From the IMG/VR virus record IMGVR_UViG_3300031952_000023, positions 1 to 51,478 of that record: a stretch of 51,478 nucleotides of DNA. One strand, written 5' to 3'. This document shows, piece after piece, positions 4,985 through 42,846 of the stretch (positions are counted from its first letter, which is position 1; every line of letters starts with the position of its first letter). A program made the translations under genes and the position numbers. The stretch is from a virus. The notes under the pieces were generated by a model. The model was not told the DNA's origin. It made no database searches and worked only from the letters and a program-made list of their open reading frames with translations.

Positions 4985-6898
4985 TTAGGCGGTTACTACC
5001 TCGTTAGGTTGTCCATTAGTAAATATAAATGACAACAATTTTGTTTTTTCAATGTATGATAAATTTTCTACATTAAAATTCTGTCCATTTAATGTTATAT
5101 TACCTTTTATATTAACATCCATTTTATTTTGTTTATTTTCAGATACTATATTATTTGTTGTTGTATTATTTATATTTTTTTCTAATACCTGCATTCTATC
5201 CAACAATTTTTGAGTCATATTATTTGTTGTAACAAAACCATTGTGGGTTGGCGTAAATAATTCTGGTCCTTTTTCTCCTACAACATAACTTTTACTTTTT
5301 TGTACTGGATCACCTTCTTCTTTCTTACCATCAGGTTGTACTCCAATTACTGATTTACCAACATTAACAGTATTATCCTTAACTTTATCCCATAATATTC
5401 CAAAATTATTACCAGCAGCTACAAATCCATCGAACAAACTACTACCAGCTTTTAACCAATCAACATTTAATCCTTTCTGAATATTCTGAATAATTATTTT
5501 TTCCTGATCTTTAATTTCTTTAGCTATTGGTTCAATAACTTCGCCATACATCTGAACACCTTTAACTAATTTTGGATTTATTGCATCAGCAATTCTACCT
5601 TTAATTTTTGAATCAATACTTTCTACAAATCCATTAATTGATTCTGTTGCTGTTAATGTATTTTTTGCTATATCTTCTGGTGCAACTATTTCTTGTTTTT
5701 TTAAGTCCTTTATTTGTTCTTCACTTAAATCAGATAATTTTGTGAATATATCCTTATTATCTTTATCTTGGCCTACTTTAACTTTAAATTCACCATCTTT
5801 CATCTGGGATAAAGTTGTTATTTTATCTTTATCTTCTTCTGATAATTTATTAAAATTTACATTAGCTGATAGTTCAGATAATGCTTTTTGTGATTTAGCA
5901 AAATTTAAAGCTGATTTACTTAAATCATCATAACTAATTCCTGTTTCTTTTGCAACCTCTCTCAATCTTCTCATTTCTGTTTTAGATATTTGAAATTGAT
6001 TAGTTTGTTTATTAAATGTTACTGAAGCAGAAGCAGCCTTAACTATGGATTGAGTAAGTCCTTCCATATCATTAGTTGCTTGATACATTAAAGTAAAAGG
6101 ATCAGCTAATGCTGAGAATCCACCACCTAATAATTGTAATCCTGCTGCTGCTTCAATGGCTGATTGTGGATCAAATAATTTTTCAGCAAATCCATCAATA
6201 AATCCAAAATCAAGTCTTAATTTCTGGGTTAATTTTGCCATTTTTTCTAATCCATCTATACCATTCTTAAATCCAAATTTATTAACTTTATCAATATTTT
6301 TAACTACTGTTTCTATATATGCTTTAATATTTAAACCACTTTTAGTGGCTTTTTGACGCATATCTTCAACCTTATCCGCAGTATCATCTATTGATACACC
6401 TAATGTATTAAATGATTCAATTGCTGTTAGCATATTATATGGATCCAATGCACCAATTTTGTCTAATGCTAAAAATCTATTTAAACCATGTTCAGTTAAT
6501 TGAGTTTGAACTTTTAATGTTTCATTAATATTATTAAATGTTTCAGCAACCTCAGTATATGTTTTATCAAATAGTACAGCATCTTCATATGCTGATCTTA
6601 GATTTTCTCTTAATGTTTTTGATTCTTCACCAACTACACCAAGTTTTATAGCAGCATTTTCAAATTCTTTAGATATATCGGCCTGATTAAATCCTTTACC
6701 TGAGTTTCCTTTACCCATGGAACGCTGAAAGAAATCGTTTGGGATTTTGGCTGGTGCCATAGCTAAGTCATATGCACCACCGCTTATCTTTCCTACAGCA
6801 TCACCTGCACCTTTACCTATATTTGTTATACCACCTGCTCCTGCTATTTTTGATGCTATTTTTGACACAAGATCTGTAACATCTGTAACAAAACTCAT
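4985..6898 (-). CDS. Tail tape measure protein
   Basis: This 637-residue protein sits between the gp26-like gene and the large baseplate gene, where a tape measure is expected. It has a glycine/alanine-rich amphipathic N-terminus (about residues 1-50), a long helical middle, and near the C-terminus the phrase YVVGEKGPELFTPTHNGFV (about residues 540-560). That phrase is a hallmark of the C-terminal part of many tape measure proteins. It ends with an Asn/Thr-rich stretch and a short coiled coil. A tape measure sets tail length and passes through the tube; T4 gp29 is the functional analogue. At 637 residues it predicts a tail of roughly ordinary length for a myovirus. A TATTTATA motif lies about 15 bases upstream of the ATG. 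Confidence 0.8.
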   Translation of the reverse strand: MSFVTDVTDLVSKIASKIAGAGGITNIGKGAGDAVGKISGGAYDLAMAPAKIPNDFFQRSMGKGNSGKGFNQADISKEFENAAIKLGVVGEESKTLRENLRSAYEDAVLFDKTYTEVAETFNNINETLKVQTQLTEHGLNRFLALDKIGALDPYNMLTAIESFNTLGVSIDDTADKVEDMRQKATKSGLNIKAYIETVVKNIDKVNKFGFKNGIDGLEKMAKLTQKLRLDFGFIDGFAEKLFDPQSAIEAAAGLQLLGGGFSALADPFTLMYQATNDMEGLTQSIVKAASASVTFNKQTNQFQISKTEMRRLREVAKETGISYDDLSKSALNFAKSQKALSELSANVNFNKLSEEDKDKITTLSQMKDGEFKVKVGQDKDNKDIFTKLSDLSEEQIKDLKKQEIVAPEDIAKNTLTATESINGFVESIDSKIKGRIADAINPKLVKGVQMYGEVIEPIAKEIKDQEKIIIQNIQKGLNVDWLKAGSSLFDGFVAAGNNFGILWDKVKDNTVNVGKSVIGVQPDGKKEEGDPVQKSKSYVVGEKGPELFTPTHNGFVTTNNMTQKLLDRMQVLEKNINNTTTNNIVSENKQNKMDVNIKGNITLNGQNFNVENLSYIEKTKLLSFIFTNGQPNEVVTA

Positions 6899-19614: not shown

Positions 19615-19767
19615 ATGGAATTTACAAAAGAATTATTGCAGGAATTAAAATTAGCTTATAATAAAGCTGTAGCAGATGATGTTGAGTCATTTATTTTTCA
19701 TGATCATTTATTGATACCTGCTTATGCAAAATATCTTATCGAGTATCTGGATAATCAATTTAAATAA
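19615..19767 (+). CDS. Small acidic helical protein, unknown
   Basis: 50 residues (MEFTKELLQELKLAYNKAVA, then ending YLIEYLDNQFK). Its stop overlaps the ATG of the next gene by one base (TAATG), so the pair is likely coupled. No function is recognised. Confidence 0.45.
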   Translation: MEFTKELLQELKLAYNKAVADDVESFIFHDHLLIPAYAKYLIEYLDNQFK

Positions 19768-20462
19768 TGGATAAAGTAAAAGAAAAATGGAGTTATAATG
19801 GTGAATCATTTAATTTTTATTGGGGTTGGAATTTTGATATAAGTTATGAAATCTGTGGATATTTTGATCCAAGACATAGAATTAATTTACATTTTCTATA
19901 TTGTAATTTAACAATAAAATTACCATTTAAAAGTAAGTACACTGATGAATGTGACCCACCTAAATATGGAATTGCATATCATAATAAAACATTATGGATT
20001 CACAGAGGAGGTAAAGGAAATGATAATGGCGGAAATAAATGGTGGACATTTAATATGCCATGGCAATTAGATTGGGTAAGAACAAGTAATCTCAGGAAAG
20101 ATGGAACTTGGGAACACGAAACCAAGAAAAATAGAAAACGATTTTATTTAGAAGGTTGGGATAATATTCTATGGAAAGAAACTCATCCATATGTTTATAT
20201 TCTATATTCAGGAGAAATTCAAAATAGATTGGCAACAATTAGATTGTCTGAAAGAGAATGGAGACAACAATGGCTTAAATGGACAAAATTATTTGCTAAA
20301 GTTAGTAAATTTATTGAAATTGATTTTAATCAGGAAGTAGGTGAAAAAAGTGGGGGTTGGAAAGGTGGATGTAGTTATGAAATGAAAGATAATGAAACTC
20401 CTTTAGATGCTTTACGTAGAATGGAGTTAGATTGGCATCGTAAGAAAATTTTGATATGGTAA
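19767..20462 (+). CDS. Tryptophan-rich phage protein, unknown
   Basis: 231 residues with a high content of Trp and Tyr (FNFYWGWNFDISYEICGYF near the N-terminus; WIHRGG; KWWTFNMPWQLDW; LSEREWRQQWLKWTKLF). Proteins with these phrases occur widely in phages of aquatic bacteria and are unassigned as far as I know. There is no signal peptide or membrane helix. It overlaps the nucleotidyltransferase gene by 7 bases, so the two may act together. Confidence 0.6.
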   Translation: MDKVKEKWSYNGESFNFYWGWNFDISYEICGYFDPRHRINLHFLYCNLTIKLPFKSKYTDECDPPKYGIAYHNKTLWIHRGGKGNDNGGNKWWTFNMPWQLDWVRTSNLRKDGTWEHETKKNRKRFYLEGWDNILWKETHPYVYILYSGEIQNRLATIRLSEREWRQQWLKWTKLFAKVSKFIEIDFNQEVGEKSGGWKGGCSYEMKDNETPLDALRRMELDWHRKKILIW

Positions 20463-21628
20463 CTGAACAAGAAAGAGAAGAACTAAGAAAAAATAGTCCT
20501 ATACCTGATGGATGTATATTTCAAGCAATTGTTGGATCTCATGCATACGGCACTAATGTAGAAAATTCTGATTTCGATGTCAAAGGAATTTACATGCAAG
20601 ATCCTGAAGATGTTCTTAATAATGGTTATAGAGAACAACTGACAATAAATAAAGATGAAGTTTATTATGAACTACGCCGATTTTTAGATCTTGCTTGTGG
20701 CGGAAATCCAACTATGTTAGAATTAGCCTTTTTACCAGAAGATTGTATTTTATATAAACATCCTGTTATGGATATGCTGATAGCTAATAAAGAAAAACTA
20801 TTATCTAAATCATGTAAGCATTCTTATGGGGGTTATTCATGGAGTCAGATAAGTAAGGCAAATGGTCTTGAGAAGAAAATGAACTGGGAGAAAGAAAGAA
20901 TCAATAGAAAGGATATTCTTGATTTTTGTTATGTTATGGAGAAGCAAGAGGATTTTAAAACCTTACCTGTTAAACAATGGTTAAAATATAACAATTATAA
21001 ACAAGAAAACTGTGGATTACTCAATCTTCCACACTTTACTGATTGTTATGGTTTGTTCTATGATCATGTAATGGATATTGATATAACTAATCCGAGGTAT
21101 ACACCTATTGGATATAGAGGTATTGTAACTGATATGGAAAAAGCAAATGATATATGCTTATCCAGTATTCCTAAGTATTCAATAAGAGAAGCTATGTTAT
21201 TCTTTAATAAGAATGCTTATAGTATTCATTGTAAAGAATATTTGGAGTATCAGGAATGGTTAAATAAAAGAAATGTTCAACGATATGTTGATGTTGCTAA
21301 TCATAATCAGTCCGTGGATGGAAAAAATTTATTACATTGTATGCGTTTAATTGAAACAGGTATTGAGATAGCTGAGTATAAAACTATTAATGTAAGAAGA
21401 CCTAATGCTGATTATCTGATCGGTATAAGAAAGGGTGCTTATGATCTTAAAAAGCTATTAGGGGAAGCAGAAGCCAAAATTACCACTATGAACCAGGCCT
21501 TTGTTACTTCCACCTTACCAGATAAGGCTGATCGTGGATTTTTTCTTGGATTAATACCTAAAATGCGTAAGATCTACTACGAAGAGAGTACTTACTATTT
21601 AATAAAATGGATTGTCAAAGACCAGTAA
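20456..21628 (+). CDS. Predicted nucleotidyltransferase (COG3541-type)
   Basis: The 390-residue protein has the nucleotidyltransferase signature near the N-terminus: GSHAYGT (residues 27-33) then SDFDVKGIY, with Gly27-Ser28 and Asp39/Asp41 as the metal- and nucleotide-binding residues. The long C-terminal part matches the layout of the COG3541 / YcgL family of predicted nucleotidyltransferases found in bacteria and in many large phages. The substrate is unknown; RNA or protein nucleotidylation are both possible. All catalytic residues seem present. The gene sits at the end of the operon and overlaps both neighbours. Confidence 0.85.
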   Translation: MVTEQEREELRKNSPIPDGCIFQAIVGSHAYGTNVENSDFDVKGIYMQDPEDVLNNGYREQLTINKDEVYYELRRFLDLACGGNPTMLELAFLPEDCILYKHPVMDMLIANKEKLLSKSCKHSYGGYSWSQISKANGLEKKMNWEKERINRKDILDFCYVMEKQEDFKTLPVKQWLKYNNYKQENCGLLNLPHFTDCYGLFYDHVMDIDITNPRYTPIGYRGIVTDMEKANDICLSSIPKYSIREAMLFFNKNAYSIHCKEYLEYQEWLNKRNVQRYVDVANHNQSVDGKNLLHCMRLIETGIEIAEYKTINVRRPNADYLIGIRKGAYDLKKLLGEAEAKITTMNQAFVTSTLPDKADRGFFLGLIPKMRKIYYEESTYYLIKWIVKDQ

Positions 21629-34274: not shown

Positions 34275-37200
34275 ATGGAACAAGATATCCAAAAATTCTT
34301 AGAAGGATTTGATGACGAGAAATATATAACAGCTTTAGAATATGATTATAAAACATCATCTATAATAAAAATTAAAGATGATCCTATCAGTGGAAAATTA
34401 CTTGTATCAGATAAATTAACCCCATTTTGTTTTATAGGTAATTTATCTAATCTTAATTTTTATGGCGGATCAAAAGAAGAACAAAAAAAAGCAATATCCA
34501 AACACGGTATAGTAATTGAAAAATTAAATACTGGTAATAATATTTCATTACAAAATGGATTAAAATATGTTGTTAAAACAACAAAAACATTAAATAATTT
34601 AATTAATTTTTTTAAAGACGGTGGAATAGATCCTTGGAAAACAGATGAAGCAATAATGCTTCCTATAAAAGAACAATATTTAATTCAAAAACAAAAAAGA
34701 TTATTTAAAGGATATGAAGATTATGAATCAATTCATAAATTATGTTTTGACTTAGAAACAACTTCATTAGATCCAACTAAAGGAACTATATTTCTTATTG
34801 GGTTAAAAGATAGTAGAGGATATGAAAAATTAATTGAATGTAATAATGAAGAAAAAGAACGGAATGGTATAATTGAATTTTTTAATACAATTGATAAATT
34901 AAAACCATCTGTTATAATGGCATATAATTCATCAACATTTGATTGGCCATTTTTATTAAAACGTGCTGAAATATTAGGTATAGATTATTCTGAAGTTATA
35001 AAAACTTTGGATCCAGATACGACAATAAAAATAAACGATAAAGCTGTTTTAAAATTAGGTAATAAATCAGAGTATTTTAATCAGATTAAATTGTGGGGTT
35101 ATAATGTTGTGGATGTTGCACATGCTGTTAGACGTGCCAAAGCAATTAATAGTGATATAAAAGCATGGAATCTTAAATATATTACCAAATATATAGGAGC
35201 AAATAAAAAGAATCGTGTTTATATCAAAGGAGATAATATATCTAAAATATATTTTTCCGATGAAATGTATTATTTTAATGATATTGATGGTAGATACACA
35301 ACAAAGAAACCAGAACAAAACATTATATTTAAAGAATTTATAACAAGAGAAGATATTAAAAATAATCCAGCTACATGGTATATTTTTGGTGATAATATGC
35401 AACGTTCAGGTCATGGTGGGCAAGCAAAAGAAATTAGAGGTGAACCCAACACTATTGGTATAAGAACTAAAAAGAAACCTTCTATGGAAGATGATTCTTT
35501 TTTTACTGATGATGAATTTGAAAATAATTGTAAATTAATAACAGAAGATATTGATGCTATTAAATTAAAAGTTTTAGAAGGGAGAATAATTATTTTTCCA
35601 AAAGCAGGAATAGGGACAGGATTATCTGGATTAAAAAATAAAGCACCTAAAACTTTTGAATGTTTAATTGCGCAGCTAAAAGAATTAAAACAATACAGTG
35701 ATAATTTTAAATTAGTTGATGGAAAATATATTGTTAAAAGATATTTGATGGATGATCTGGACGAAACTTTTGAAGTTGATAGAGAATTCAATCAAGCAGC
35801 ATATCTTCTCGCAAAAAATATTCCAACAGATTATGAAAGAGTAAGTACTATGGGTACTGCTAGTTTATGGAAAATGTTAATGTTGTCATGGAGTTATGAA
35901 AATAATTTAGCAATTCCAAAGAAACAAAGTAAAAGAGAATTTACTGGTGGGTTATCAAGACTTGTTAGTGTAGGGTATAATAAAAATGTGGTTAAATTTG
36001 ACTTTTCATCTCTTTATCCATCTATTCAATTAGTTAATGATGTATTCCCAGATTCAGATATAACAGGTGTTATGAAAAGAATGTTAAAATATTTTAGAGA
36101 TACTAGAATATTTTATAAGAATGAAACAGCAAGAGTTGAAAAATCTGATCCTATTTTATCTAAATCATATGATAGAAAACAATTACCATTAAAAATATTT
36201 ATTAATTCTATGTTTGGTGCTCTATCAGCACCACATGTTTTTCCATGGGGAGATATAGATAAAGGTGAAATGATAACATGTACTGGAAGACAATATTTAA
36301 GAAAAATGATTAAATATTTTATGGACCGTGGATTTAAACCGCTTGTATTAGATACAGATGGTGTTAATTTTACTATTCCAGATGATATTGAATCGTGTAC
36401 TTATATTGGACAAGGATTAAATGAATTAACTGAAAAAGATAAAGAATATAAAGGAATAAAAGCTGTTGTTGCTGAATTTAATGACATTTATTTACGGAAT
36501 GAAATGGGTTTAAGTATTGATGGACAATGGCCTTCATCCATTAATCTTGCACGTAAGAATTATGCTTTATTAAATTATAATGGTAAAGTTAAATTAACAG
36601 GTAATACAATTAAATCAGACAGACTTCCAGGGTATATTGAAGAATTTTTTGATAAAGGACTTAAAATGTTATTGAACGGTAATGGCTCAGATTATATTGA
36701 ATATTACTATGAAACAATAAATAAATTATTTAATAAAGAAATACCATTATTAAAATTAGCCAATAAATCAAAAGTTAATATTTCTCTTAAAGATTATATT
36801 AATAGATTAAGTAAAAAAAATAAGGCAGGTAATAGCATGTCAAGAATGGCGCATATGGAATTACTTATTAAGGATGGAATAGAACCAGATTTAGGTGATG
36901 TAGTTTATTATGTTAATAATGGAAAAGTTGCATCACATGGTGATGTTCAGAAAAAAGGTGACGGTATAATTTTAAATTGTTATAAACTTGATGTTAGAGA
37001 ATTAGAAGTAAATCCTAATATGTTAGGTGAATATAATGTACCAAGATATATTAAAAATTTTAATGAAAGTATTTCACCTTTGTTAATTGTTTTTAAAGAA
37101 GAAATTAGAAATACTTTATTAATTAAAGATCCTAATAACAGACAATATTATACTAAAGAACAAACTGAATTAATTAGTGGTATACCTACATCAGCAGATG

Positions 37201-37322
37201 GACAAGATGATCTAGAAGAAGATGTTTTTAAAATGGAAGAAAAGGAAAATATTTTTTGGAATAAAGTAGGAATTGACTCAAATTATATGTTCTCAACCAA
37301 CGATACTCTTACTACCATCTGA
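34275..37322 (+). CDS. Family B DNA polymerase with inserted domain
   Basis: The 1015-residue protein carries 3'-5' exonuclease motifs Exo I (FDLETTS, Asp159/Glu161), Exo II (YNSSTFDWPF, Asp223) and Exo III (RYLMDD, Tyr490/Asp494). The polymerase motifs are A (FDFSSLYPSI, Asp576), B (Lys640 with NSMFG) and C (LDTDG, Asp693/Asp695). All catalytic residues are present, so it should be active in replication with proofreading; T4 gp43 is the analogue. The distance between Exo II and Exo III is about 270 residues, against about 105 in T4-type enzymes, because an extra domain of about 125 residues is inserted. The 3' end overlaps the convergent fibre gene by 30 bases. It is the only replication polymerase in the window. 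Confidence 0.93.
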   Translation: MEQDIQKFLEGFDDEKYITALEYDYKTSSIIKIKDDPISGKLLVSDKLTPFCFIGNLSNLNFYGGSKEEQKKAISKHGIVIEKLNTGNNISLQNGLKYVVKTTKTLNNLINFFKDGGIDPWKTDEAIMLPIKEQYLIQKQKRLFKGYEDYESIHKLCFDLETTSLDPTKGTIFLIGLKDSRGYEKLIECNNEEKERNGIIEFFNTIDKLKPSVIMAYNSSTFDWPFLLKRAEILGIDYSEVIKTLDPDTTIKINDKAVLKLGNKSEYFNQIKLWGYNVVDVAHAVRRAKAINSDIKAWNLKYITKYIGANKKNRVYIKGDNISKIYFSDEMYYFNDIDGRYTTKKPEQNIIFKEFITREDIKNNPATWYIFGDNMQRSGHGGQAKEIRGEPNTIGIRTKKKPSMEDDSFFTDDEFENNCKLITEDIDAIKLKVLEGRIIIFPKAGIGTGLSGLKNKAPKTFECLIAQLKELKQYSDNFKLVDGKYIVKRYLMDDLDETFEVDREFNQAAYLLAKNIPTDYERVSTMGTASLWKMLMLSWSYENNLAIPKKQSKREFTGGLSRLVSVGYNKNVVKFDFSSLYPSIQLVNDVFPDSDITGVMKRMLKYFRDTRIFYKNETARVEKSDPILSKSYDRKQLPLKIFINSMFGALSAPHVFPWGDIDKGEMITCTGRQYLRKMIKYFMDRGFKPLVLDTDGVNFTIPDDIESCTYIGQGLNELTEKDKEYKGIKAVVAEFNDIYLRNEMGLSIDGQWPSSINLARKNYALLNYNGKVKLTGNTIKSDRLPGYIEEFFDKGLKMLLNGNGSDYIEYYYETINKLFNKEIPLLKLANKSKVNISLKDYINRLSKKNKAGNSMSRMAHMELLIKDGIEPDLGDVVYYVNNGKVASHGDVQKKGDGIILNCYKLDVRELEVNPNMLGEYNVPRYIKNFNESISPLLIVFKEEIRNTLLIKDPNNRQYYTKEQTELISGIPTSADGQDDLEEDVFKMEEKENIFWNKVGIDSNYMFSTNDTLTTI
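35313..35684 (+). other. Macro-like phage domain inserted in the polymerase exonuclease
   Basis: Residues about 347-470 of the polymerase begin KEFITREDIKNNPATWYIFG and contain GDN, SGHGGQAKEIRGEPNTIGI, TKKKPSMEDDSFFTD and FPKAGIGTGLSGLKNKAP. This is the complete pattern of a stand-alone phage protein family I know as a DUF (DUF7831, from memory), with a glycine-rich nucleotide-binding look resembling macro domains. The polymerase sequence resumes with DGKYIVKRYLMDDL. The insert keeps the reading frame, starts and ends cleanly, and has no intein splice motifs. Confidence 0.8.
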
Positions 37323-40029: not shown

Positions 40030-42846
40030 ATGGATATGTTACCAGAACAAAAAGCTCTTGATATTCTTGAAAAATATCAAGGTACTAATGATTATATTAA
40101 TGAATTACAATATAAAGTTAATAAACGTAATTTTCCATTAAATAGGAATCAATCGGAATATATTATAAATAATCATGAATATAAACCCAAAATTGCTAAA
40201 AAATATATAAAAATAGATGAATATTTTGGAAAAAAAATAATGGAAGAATTATTACTTACAGTTATACCGAATCAAATATGGGTTGAAAAACTATTAACTG
40301 AAAGTGATAAAGCATATCATATATTAGGTAAAAGATATAGTGGAGAAACATTATGTCATTTCTGGATTCCTAAAACTCAGATTATACCAGATAAAAAAGA
40401 TAGAATTTTTGAAATAGATTATACTAAGTATGAACATAGAATGCCTATGGAACATCAAAAATTAGGTATTCAAAAATTATTAAATAATAATAAATTTATT
40501 TTAGCAGATGACATGGGAGTAGGTAAAGAAGAATATATAGAAAATAGATTATTTACACCATATGGAAGAAAAAGAATTGGGGATATAATTGTTGGTGATT
40601 ATGTTATAGGTTCTGATGGTAATAAAATTAAAGTTATTGGTGTTTATCCGCAAGGAGTAAAAAAATTATATAGAGTATCATTTAATGATAAATCTTCTAT
40701 ACTTGTTGGTGAAGAACACTTATGGTGTGTTTATAATAGAGATAATAGACGAAATACTCATAAATATATAACATTAACAACCAATCAATTGATAGATAAA
40801 AATTTAATATTGATTAATAATAGTAAAAAATATGATTATAAATTTAAAACTTATTATAAAGAATCAAATAATAACAATAAATGGAGAATACCAATAGTTA
40901 AACCAATACAATTTAAAAATAAAGGTAAATTACCAATAGATCCTTATTTATTAGGTATAATTTTGGGTGATGGATGTATAGGCGAAAAAGATATTACTAT
41001 TACTTTACATAAAAATGATTATGAAGAATTAATAGGTGAATTTCCTCACAATAAAAAAAAAATATATAAAAATATAACAAATTCTTCTTTTAATTATCTT
41101 CTACCATCTATTATTAAATTAGGATTAAAACATAAAAGGTCATATGAAAAATTTGTACCTGATATTTACAAATACTCATCTATTGAAGATAGAATAAAAT
41201 TATTAAGAGGTTTAATGGATACTGACGGTACTGTTTCCAAAGGATTTAGAAAAAATAGAATTAAAAAAACTAATATAGCGCAATATTGTTCAGTGTCAAA
41301 ACAATTAATAGATGATGTTGTAGAAATAGTTAATTCTCTTGGTGGTATAGCAAGAATAAGTAAAAAACAAGGTAAATATAAAAAAGATGGTAAAGTAATT
41401 ATATGTAAAATGGCATATAATGTAAGTATAAAATTACCTAATGATATTAATCCATTTAAATTAAAAAGAAAAGCTGATATCTATAAACCACCAACAAAAT
41501 ATAAAGTAAGTAGATATATAACGTCAATAGAATTTGAAAAATATGGCGAAGCTGTATGTATTAAAGTAGATGCACCAGATCATTTATATGTAACAGAACA
41601 TGCTATTATAACACATAATACAACTACAGCAGTAATGGGTTCAATTGAATCCAATGCTAAGAAGATATTAATTGTGTGTCCAAAGAGTTTAAAATTAAAT
41701 TGGAAAAGAGAGATAGAACATTATACACCATCAGATGATATTGTTATAATAGATGGTAAAAAATGGAATTCAGCAAAATATATAATAATAAATTATGACA
41801 TATTAAAAAATTTTCATTCTTTAGATAAAGAAAATCCCATAACTACTCTTATAGATGAAAATTTTGATTTAGCTATTATAGATGAGGCACATGCAATTTC
41901 CAATACATCTAAACGTACTAAATTAACCAGTGATATTTTATCCAAAATAAATAAAGTTTGGTTACTTACTGGGACACCTGTTACATCTAGACCAATAAAT
42001 TATTATAATTTATTAAAAGTTATTGGTAATCCTGTTGCTAATAATTGGATATATTATATAAGAAGATATTGCGATGGTAAGCAAATTTTTATGGGTAGAA
42101 AAAGAATATGGAAAACCGATGGAGCATCTAATTTAGAAGAATTACATGAAAAAACAAAACACCAAGTTTTAAGAAGATTAAAAGAAGATGTTTTAGATTT
42201 ACCTGAAAAAATAAGAACTCCAGTTTATCTTAAAATGAATTCTGCTGAATATGAACAAGAAATGGGTGAGTATCTTAATTGGTTAGATGAAAATCAGGAT
42301 AAAAGTTTAAGTATACAATTAAATAAAATTGTTAAAATAAGACAGATTATAGCTAATGAAAAAATACCTTATACTATTGAATTAACTGAAAATGCATTAG
42401 ATCAAGATAAAAAAGTTATTATATTTACTAATTTTACTGATCCATTAATGAAATTACATGAATATTTTGGTAAACAATCCGTTGTACTTCATGGACAAAT
42501 GAAAGATGAAGATAGACAAAAAAGTATTGATGATTTTCAAAATGATCCTAAAATAAAAATATTCATTTCTAATATGAAAGCAGGTGGGGTTGGTATAACT
42601 TTAACTGCTGCTGAAGTTGAAATTATGAATGATTTACCATTTGTTCCATATCTAGCCCTTCAGTGTGAAGATAGATCGTATAGGAAAGGTCAAAGAAATA
42701 ATGTAAATATATTTTATCCATTATTTGAAAATACTATGGAAATGGTTATATATGATATGTTAAATAAGAAAAAACAAAATATTAATACTATAATAGGTGA
42801 TGCCGAAGATGATGTATTTAAAATAGTTTTAGAAAATTTAAAATGA
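40030..42846 (+). CDS. SNF2-family helicase interrupted by an intein
   Basis: The precursor has 938 residues; after removal of the 364-residue intein, 574 remain. P-loop: MGVGK (162-166) plus Thr531 after splicing, giving GVGKTT. Walker B is IIDEAHAIS (DEAH from Asp618), motif III LLTGTP (about 645-650) and the C-terminal helicase motifs 'VVLHGQM', 'MKAGGVGITLTA' and QCEDRSYRKGQ (from 878). The arrangement is that of SNF2/SMARCAL1-type DNA translocases, which remodel forks or displace proteins from DNA; in phages they accompany replication and recombination. Activity should depend on splicing, since the intein splits the ATP site. It overlaps the sulfotransferase start by four bases. Confidence 0.9.
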   Translation: MDMLPEQKALDILEKYQGTNDYINELQYKVNKRNFPLNRNQSEYIINNHEYKPKIAKKYIKIDEYFGKKIMEELLLTVIPNQIWVEKLLTESDKAYHILGKRYSGETLCHFWIPKTQIIPDKKDRIFEIDYTKYEHRMPMEHQKLGIQKLLNNNKFILADDMGVGKEEYIENRLFTPYGRKRIGDIIVGDYVIGSDGNKIKVIGVYPQGVKKLYRVSFNDKSSILVGEEHLWCVYNRDNRRNTHKYITLTTNQLIDKNLILINNSKKYDYKFKTYYKESNNNNKWRIPIVKPIQFKNKGKLPIDPYLLGIILGDGCIGEKDITITLHKNDYEELIGEFPHNKKKIYKNITNSSFNYLLPSIIKLGLKHKRSYEKFVPDIYKYSSIEDRIKLLRGLMDTDGTVSKGFRKNRIKKTNIAQYCSVSKQLIDDVVEIVNSLGGIARISKKQGKYKKDGKVIICKMAYNVSIKLPNDINPFKLKRKADIYKPPTKYKVSRYITSIEFEKYGEAVCIKVDAPDHLYVTEHAIITHNTTTAVMGSIESNAKKILIVCPKSLKLNWKREIEHYTPSDDIVIIDGKKWNSAKYIIINYDILKNFHSLDKENPITTLIDENFDLAIIDEAHAISNTSKRTKLTSDILSKINKVWLLTGTPVTSRPINYYNLLKVIGNPVANNWIYYIRRYCDGKQIFMGRKRIWKTDGASNLEELHEKTKHQVLRRLKEDVLDLPEKIRTPVYLKMNSAEYEQEMGEYLNWLDENQDKSLSIQLNKIVKIRQIIANEKIPYTIELTENALDQDKKVIIFTNFTDPLMKLHEYFGKQSVVLHGQMKDEDRQKSIDDFQNDPKIKIFISNMKAGGVGITLTAAEVEIMNDLPFVPYLALQCEDRSYRKGQRNNVNIFYPLFENTMEMVIYDMLNKKKQNINTIIGDAEDDVFKIVLENLK
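40528..41619 (+). mobile_element. Class 3 intein with LAGLIDADG endonuclease
   Basis: Residues 167-530 of the helicase precursor. It starts with Glu instead of Cys or Ser and ends THN, with Thr as the first residue after it. The class 3 'WCT' set is present: Trp232 (GEEHLW, block B), Cys510 (GEAVCIKV, block F) and Thr528 (ITHN, block G). In class 3 inteins the block F cysteine replaces residue 1 as nucleophile, so the Glu is not a defect. Two LAGLIDADG motifs, LGIILGDGC (Asp314) and GLMDTDGTV (Asp399), form the homing endonuclease. The insertion point, between Lys and Thr of the P-loop, is a favourite of inteins in ATPases. All parts look intact. Confidence 0.92.

Follow-up and report, generated by a model that had tools for sequence, protein, structure and literature searches.

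The family B DNA polymerase of a virus that infects bacteria, encoded in the 51.5-kb virus record analysed here (the whole record is referred to as the window), carries a complete DUF7831 domain inside its exonuclease domain, in frame between Exo II and Exo III. The anatomy of this insertion, with all of the motifs of the host polymerase intact, is firm. To our knowledge, replicative polymerases rarely accept whole folded domains within the proofreading module. DUF7831 and the polymerase families are already known, and it is the combined architecture that appears to be undescribed: no paper in the literature searched, which included few subscription papers, names DUF7831, and nothing relevant to a polymerase fusion of this kind was found by title and abstract in the same coverage. 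In a survey of viral NAD and ADP-ribose systems (PMC9503650), the term "DNA polymerase" occurs once, matching the reference list. The original prediction, made from the letters of the window, had held that no such fusion is known; this holds for the literature searched but not for sequence collections, in which at least 32 other contigs carry the fusion.

The insertion in the exonuclease domain

The polymerase is encoded by a single uninterrupted ORF of 1,015 amino acids on the plus strand (34275-37322), in which Pfam recognised DNA_pol_B, DNA_pol_B_exo1 and RNase_H_2 in addition to DUF7831, while PHROG 262 (DNA polymerase) and PHROG 2072 (a family of unknown function) matched the same places. 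The exonuclease residues are all present, namely D159 and E161 of Exo I (D159-x-E161, 34749-34757, conserved in A4), N218 and D223 of Exo II (34926-34943, aligned to the Pyrococcus abyssi PolB) and Y490 and D494 of Exo III (Y490-x3-D494, 35742-35756, directly after the insert, from the same alignment and a motif check). So are those of polymerase motifs A (DFSSLYPS, D576), B (KIFINSMFG, K640, N644 and G648) and C (DTD, D693 and D695), which were located by a motif check within 36000-36359, and the claim that every exonuclease and polymerase residue is intact was thus borne out. A structure prediction of the whole protein, one of the checks proposed with the original prediction, gave a polymerase fold (mean pLDDT 86.8) that matched archaeal PolB structures (E ~1e-29, TM normalised by target of 0.63-0.73) together with a separately folding insert. 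With these motifs and the PolB fold, the protein is a family B DNA polymerase.

The inserted domain occupies residues 347-472 (35313-35690, plus strand), as delimited by Pfam, PHROG 2072, the structural model and its absence in relatives. The DUF7831 (PF25176) match itself covers residues 350-466 (35322-35672) and profile positions 1-117 of 118, with an E value of 6.9e-46 and 155.4 bits against a cut-off of 27, and the segment originally noticed at 35313-35684 is essentially this domain. The sequence that is extra relative to insert-free polymerases extends from residue ~346 to 474 (~35310-35697). The alignment to the P. abyssi PolB covers Exo II (D223) and picks up again at residue 480, just ahead of Y490 and D494 of Exo III, which places the insert within the exonuclease domain, in the loop that leads to Exo III. 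Two signature blocks, whose borders are approximate, were defined by conservation among the non-polymerase members of the family. In the first, FGDN...GHGGQAKEIRGEPNTIGI (35385-35459, plus strand), domain positions D27, N28, G33, G35, E44 and N46 are found in all of these members, and Q37 and R42 in 99% of them; in the second, FPKAGIGTGLSGLKNKAP (35595-35651, plus strand), G101 and G103 are found in 99% and P112 in 97%. The insert of the window keeps 31 of the 32 signature positions (FGDN, GxGGQAKE(M/I)RGExN and G(I/L)GTG); in the numbering of the polymerase, FGDN contains D373 and N374, and GGQAKE contains Q383. Given the whole-domain match above the cut-off and the signature residues, the insert is a member of DUF7831.

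An intein was considered and rejected, since the polymerase has no Hint match and the insert borders have neither a Cys or Ser start nor a His-Asn end. The view that the segment has no splice motifs was thereby upheld, and the DUF7831 domain should stay in the mature enzyme. Intein-like elements were observed elsewhere. At 40030-42846 on the plus strand of the window, an SNF2-type helicase is split by an intein-like segment with matches to Hint and to LAGLIDADG homing endonucleases, and outgroup polymerases from other contigs (L233, L234 and L236, and also L235 and L237) contain a separate insertion of ~250-350 amino acids beside motif A, which is probably an intein and in L233 has a weak LAGLIDADG match.

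Distribution and history of the insert

A search for other polymerases with the insert, which had also been proposed, recovered 32 other viral contigs with DUF7831 at the same polymerase site, some of them larger than 290 kb (320,934 bases for L222 and 298,833 bases for L223). The chance that two genes were joined by an assembly error is practically negligible, as the identical junction occurs in these 32 contigs from many samples and the insert does not differ in base composition from the gene around it. In polymerases 58-63% identical to that of the window (L002, L004-L006 and L030-L093), the flanks are kept and a short loop replaces the insert, and the insert is likewise absent from a group further removed (L224-L237), whose polymerases share 39-44% identity with the insert-bearing one of L027. 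The comparison with these relatives shows that the DUF7831 segment is a true insertion and not part of the normal polymerase fold. Thus, neither of the two readings named in advance as fatal to the prediction, an ordinary part of the polymerase or a misassembly, survived. A complementary distribution, in which insert-free phages would carry DUF7831 as a separate gene, was rejected, as a stand-alone copy was found in none of the 16 insert-free records in which it was sought. In a scan of bacterial genomes, DUF7831 was found at only nine loci, most of them from Alphaproteobacteria, Bacteroidota or Acidobacteriota, and the host is not identifiable from these. Some irregular reading frames were also observed: two insert-free polymerases contain one in-frame TAA within an otherwise intact gene (L003, position 2348; L052, position 6207), and in the 321-kb contig L222 the polymerase is in two overlapping frames (5283-5346), split within the polymerase domain by a frameshift or a sequencing error.

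In a polymerase tree from which the insert was left out and which was rooted on L224-L235, the window is the sister of the insert-free clade (100/100), 17 other insert-bearing rows form the next group out (100/100), and the outgroup is insert-free, so that the tree needs two changes of insert state. A phylogeny of the insert against stand-alone members, a further check that had been put forward, set all 16 polymerase inserts apart by one branch (SH-aLRT 92), with that of the window outside the remaining 15. Furthermore, the identity of the inserts follows that of the polymerases, being 43-56% between the window and the other inserts and 48-51% for the polymerase. A single capture, followed by long vertical inheritance and one clean loss in the sister clade, fits these results better than a recent transfer or a second, independent capture at this site would, with the SH-aLRT of 92 not being decisive. 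The two trees disagree on one contig, L107, which the polymerase tree joins to the L105/L014 set (96/94) and the insert tree to L021 (SH-aLRT 88); this conflict hints at an exchange of the insert or at fast divergence.

Closely related intact inserts have pairwise dN/dS values of ~0.04-0.2, with ~0.03-0.07 for the remainder of the polymerase, and judged from these ratios the intact inserts are under purifying selection. Most inserts, including that of the window, keep 29-32 of the 32 signature residues. Four contigs (L020, L021, L024 and L025) have a domain that is still full-length but in which the conserved GGQAKE and GTGL segments have eroded, with changes such as GEQSKE for GGQAKE and GTDS for GTGL, and such inserts have diverged far beyond their polymerases (48% identity for the insert and 84% for the polymerase between L014 and L021). 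Either these lineages have lost the site and still make use of the fold, or their specificity has changed. The loss of conserved residues in some relatives weakens the case for a strictly required enzymatic role and, together with the insert-free sister clade, keeps alive the explanations based on docking, sensing or a passenger domain that are weighed below.

Candidate functions of the inserted domain

The original prediction regarded DUF7831 as a family that is usually encoded as its own small protein. This is true in part: at least 98 isolate-phage records contain the domain, and the isolates whose annotation was read encode it as small hypothetical proteins, but it is also common within giant multidomain phage proteins and occurs in giant-virus proteins. 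Caulobacter phage phiCbK and Roseobacter phage DSS3P8 are cultured phages with a stand-alone DUF7831 gene. One multidomain protein combines a YpsA-type SLOG domain, DUF7831 and DUF488-N3a (L174), and in another (L106) DUF7831 is joined to segments resembling NADAR (E 0.0019) and SLOG (E 0.0037), both below the curated cut-off. In four giant phage ORFs (L103, L104, L164 and L165; 1,661-2,782 amino acids in the stretch fetched), DUF7831 lies in the middle of the protein. Two of these (L103 and L164) contain a DFDID-like motif, which we take to resemble that of the crAss-like virion RNA polymerases, and L164 has a helicase downstream.

A NAMPT-type enzyme is encoded in 14 of the 34 records with mostly stand-alone DUF7831. 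In six of them (L094, L121, L122, L161, L163 and L252) it lies within 4 kb of the stand-alone DUF7831 gene, and in all six a NadM-Nudix-type gene is paired with it, in varying arrangements. Random placement would give 1.1 such cases (P 3e-4; 0.011 when three related loci are counted as one). This connection to NAD+ and ADP-ribose through gene neighbours is the best functional clue, and it concerns stand-alone members only. NAD genes are frequent in large phages, and thus the linkage of the stand-alone genes may not transfer to the polymerase. NAMPT was found in none of nine insert-bearing records checked and a NADAR gene in only one insert-bearing record checked; NADAR, macro or NAMPT genes as companions of the fused phages were therefore rejected, being mostly absent.

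AlphaFold2 predicted, from 77 domain sequences, a compact alpha/beta domain (mean pLDDT 93.4), with the same secondary-structure elements as the insert has within the model of the whole polymerase. A search of PDB structures with the domain model gave no match at E <= 0.001, and no significant sequence relative of the insert was found in the PDB. In a library of viral structures searched with Foldseek, the significant matches were only DUF7831 proteins and giant phage proteins; models of viral macro/Tk.4 proteins reached a TM of 0.53-0.55 (query-normalised) at Foldseek E values above 1. When the DUF7831 profile was compared with 30 macro domains by hhalign, the result was not significant (probability 0.9%, 11 aligned columns), the aligned part being a short FPx-IxTG-like loop. 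Pfam Macro had no match in the window, and the NADAR profile had none in the polymerase at E values up to 1. Membership in the macro-domain family was therefore rejected, though the predicted fold looks loosely macro-like. Accordingly, the idea of an ADP-ribose- or nucleotide-binding domain draws on the gene neighbours and domain partners, whereas the resemblance to macro domains failed the profile test. We consider the chances about even that the ligand of DUF7831, as inferred, is of the NAD+/ADP-ribose type.

The explanation that we tentatively favour, holding it to be somewhat short of even, is that in one phage lineage a DUF7831 gene that had been free-standing was captured into the replicative polymerase, at a surface loop immediately preceding Exo III, and was then passed on vertically. 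DUF7831 would recognise an NAD+- or ADP-ribose-derived group, and, tethered to the polymerase, would act at the replication fork, where this group would be bound or removed on the single-stranded template, at the primer end or on the polymerase itself. Replication might thereby survive host defences such as DNA ADP-ribosylation of the DarT type. Viral DNA is ADP-ribosylated by DarTG, from which T-even phages escape through mutations in PolB (PMC11348598; PMC11481870); PMC7003065 describes replication as stalled by DNA ADP-ribosylation. A polymerase-borne binder or remover of ADP-ribose would sit at the site of the block. The shared insertion in related viruses suggests a defence-evading or sensing function on the replication machinery. 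The counter-defence step at the fork is itself speculative and doubtful, and it is no less doubtful that the polymerase itself reads or erases NAD-derived (ADP-ribose) marks, in which case a single enzyme at the fork would combine proofreading with the removal of modifications that the host places on the DNA or the polymerase. Several observations weigh against the favoured explanation: the catalytic residue and ligand of DUF7831 are both hypothetical, neither the macro profiles nor the solved structures gave a significant relationship, the conserved residues are eroded in the four lineages named above, a large sister clade lacks the insert, no stand-alone copy was found in the insert-free records checked, and NAMPT is missing from the insert-bearing records checked.

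The window also has, on the plus strand at 19767-20462, a match to the CBASS inhibitor Acb3 (124.7 bits), which would be another counter-defence gene of this phage; its end overlaps by a few bases an RlaP-type nucleotidyltransferase gene ("RNA repair pathway DNA polymerase beta family") at 20456-21628 on the same strand.

Alternatively, the insert may chiefly serve the replisome as a docking or structural module, through contact with another phage protein or by holding the exonuclease in position, with the ancestral ligand site being dispensable. The place of the insert in the exonuclease domain just before Exo III and the inserts that have lost the conserved residues yet remain full-length are in agreement with such a role. 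However, a pure spacer would need none of the 29-32 signature residues kept in the window and most other inserts, and the sister polymerases function without the insert, so we regard this as unlikely. It is slightly less likely that the domain is a sensor, through which NAD+ or a breakdown product would shift the balance between synthesis and proofreading, or would pause replication under attack by host NADases. The linkage to NAD genes and the SLOG and NADAR-like partners of other DUF7831 members, as well as a position inside the proofreading domain, would suit a sensor, but the regulation is purely hypothetical and the site is eroded in some lineages. It is improbable that the domain handles nucleotides of replication, for instance by cleaning damaged or modified dNTPs or primer ends: the tie to a replicative polymerase and the helicase, poly(A) polymerase-type or exonuclease genes near stand-alone DUF7831 in some phages are in its favour, but Pfam and NCBIfam recognised no known signature of a nucleotide hydrolase, and the NAD context points elsewhere. 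Finally, a neutral passenger that has no function at present would account for the clean absence from the large sister clade and for an insert that often evolves faster than the polymerase, but it is more improbable again, for the domain has been kept across polymerases only ~49% identical, with dN/dS of ~0.2 or lower in close intact pairs and with its signature residues preserved.

Comparison with known systems

A phage domain without an assigned function has become fixed in an enzyme with which defences such as DarTG interfere. If DUF7831 reads or removes NAD-derived marks, this would be the first function for the family, and if the counter-defence explanation is true, a polymerase carrying its own counter-defence would represent a new strategy. 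The intact inserts, eroded inserts and empty sites form a natural series that makes the function directly testable.

The role proposed for the insert is that of NADAR and the DarG macrodomain, which undo the DNA ADP-ribosylation that blocks phage replication (PMC11481870, PMC11125620). The window polymerase differs from them in having no match to the NADAR or macro families, and the activity of its insert is a prediction. Macro domains and the Tk.4-like proteins of phages, which bind or hydrolyse ADP-ribose, give a weak fold resemblance to DUF7831 at Foldseek E values above 1 and have no significant profile relationship to it. DUF7831 also occurs, with SLOG, NADAR-like and helicase parts, in giant multidomain proteins of phages, which in this respect are like the polyvalent proteins (PMC5512222); in contrast, the protein of the window is a replicative enzyme with a single inserted domain. 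The family B polymerases of Pyrococcus, KOD and 9N have the exonuclease and polymerase motifs and the fold in common with the window polymerase, at ~17-19% sequence identity in structural alignments, but their loop ahead of Exo III holds no domain. DUF7831 (PF25176; PHROG 2072), which elsewhere stands alone or within giant proteins, is here built into a replicative polymerase.
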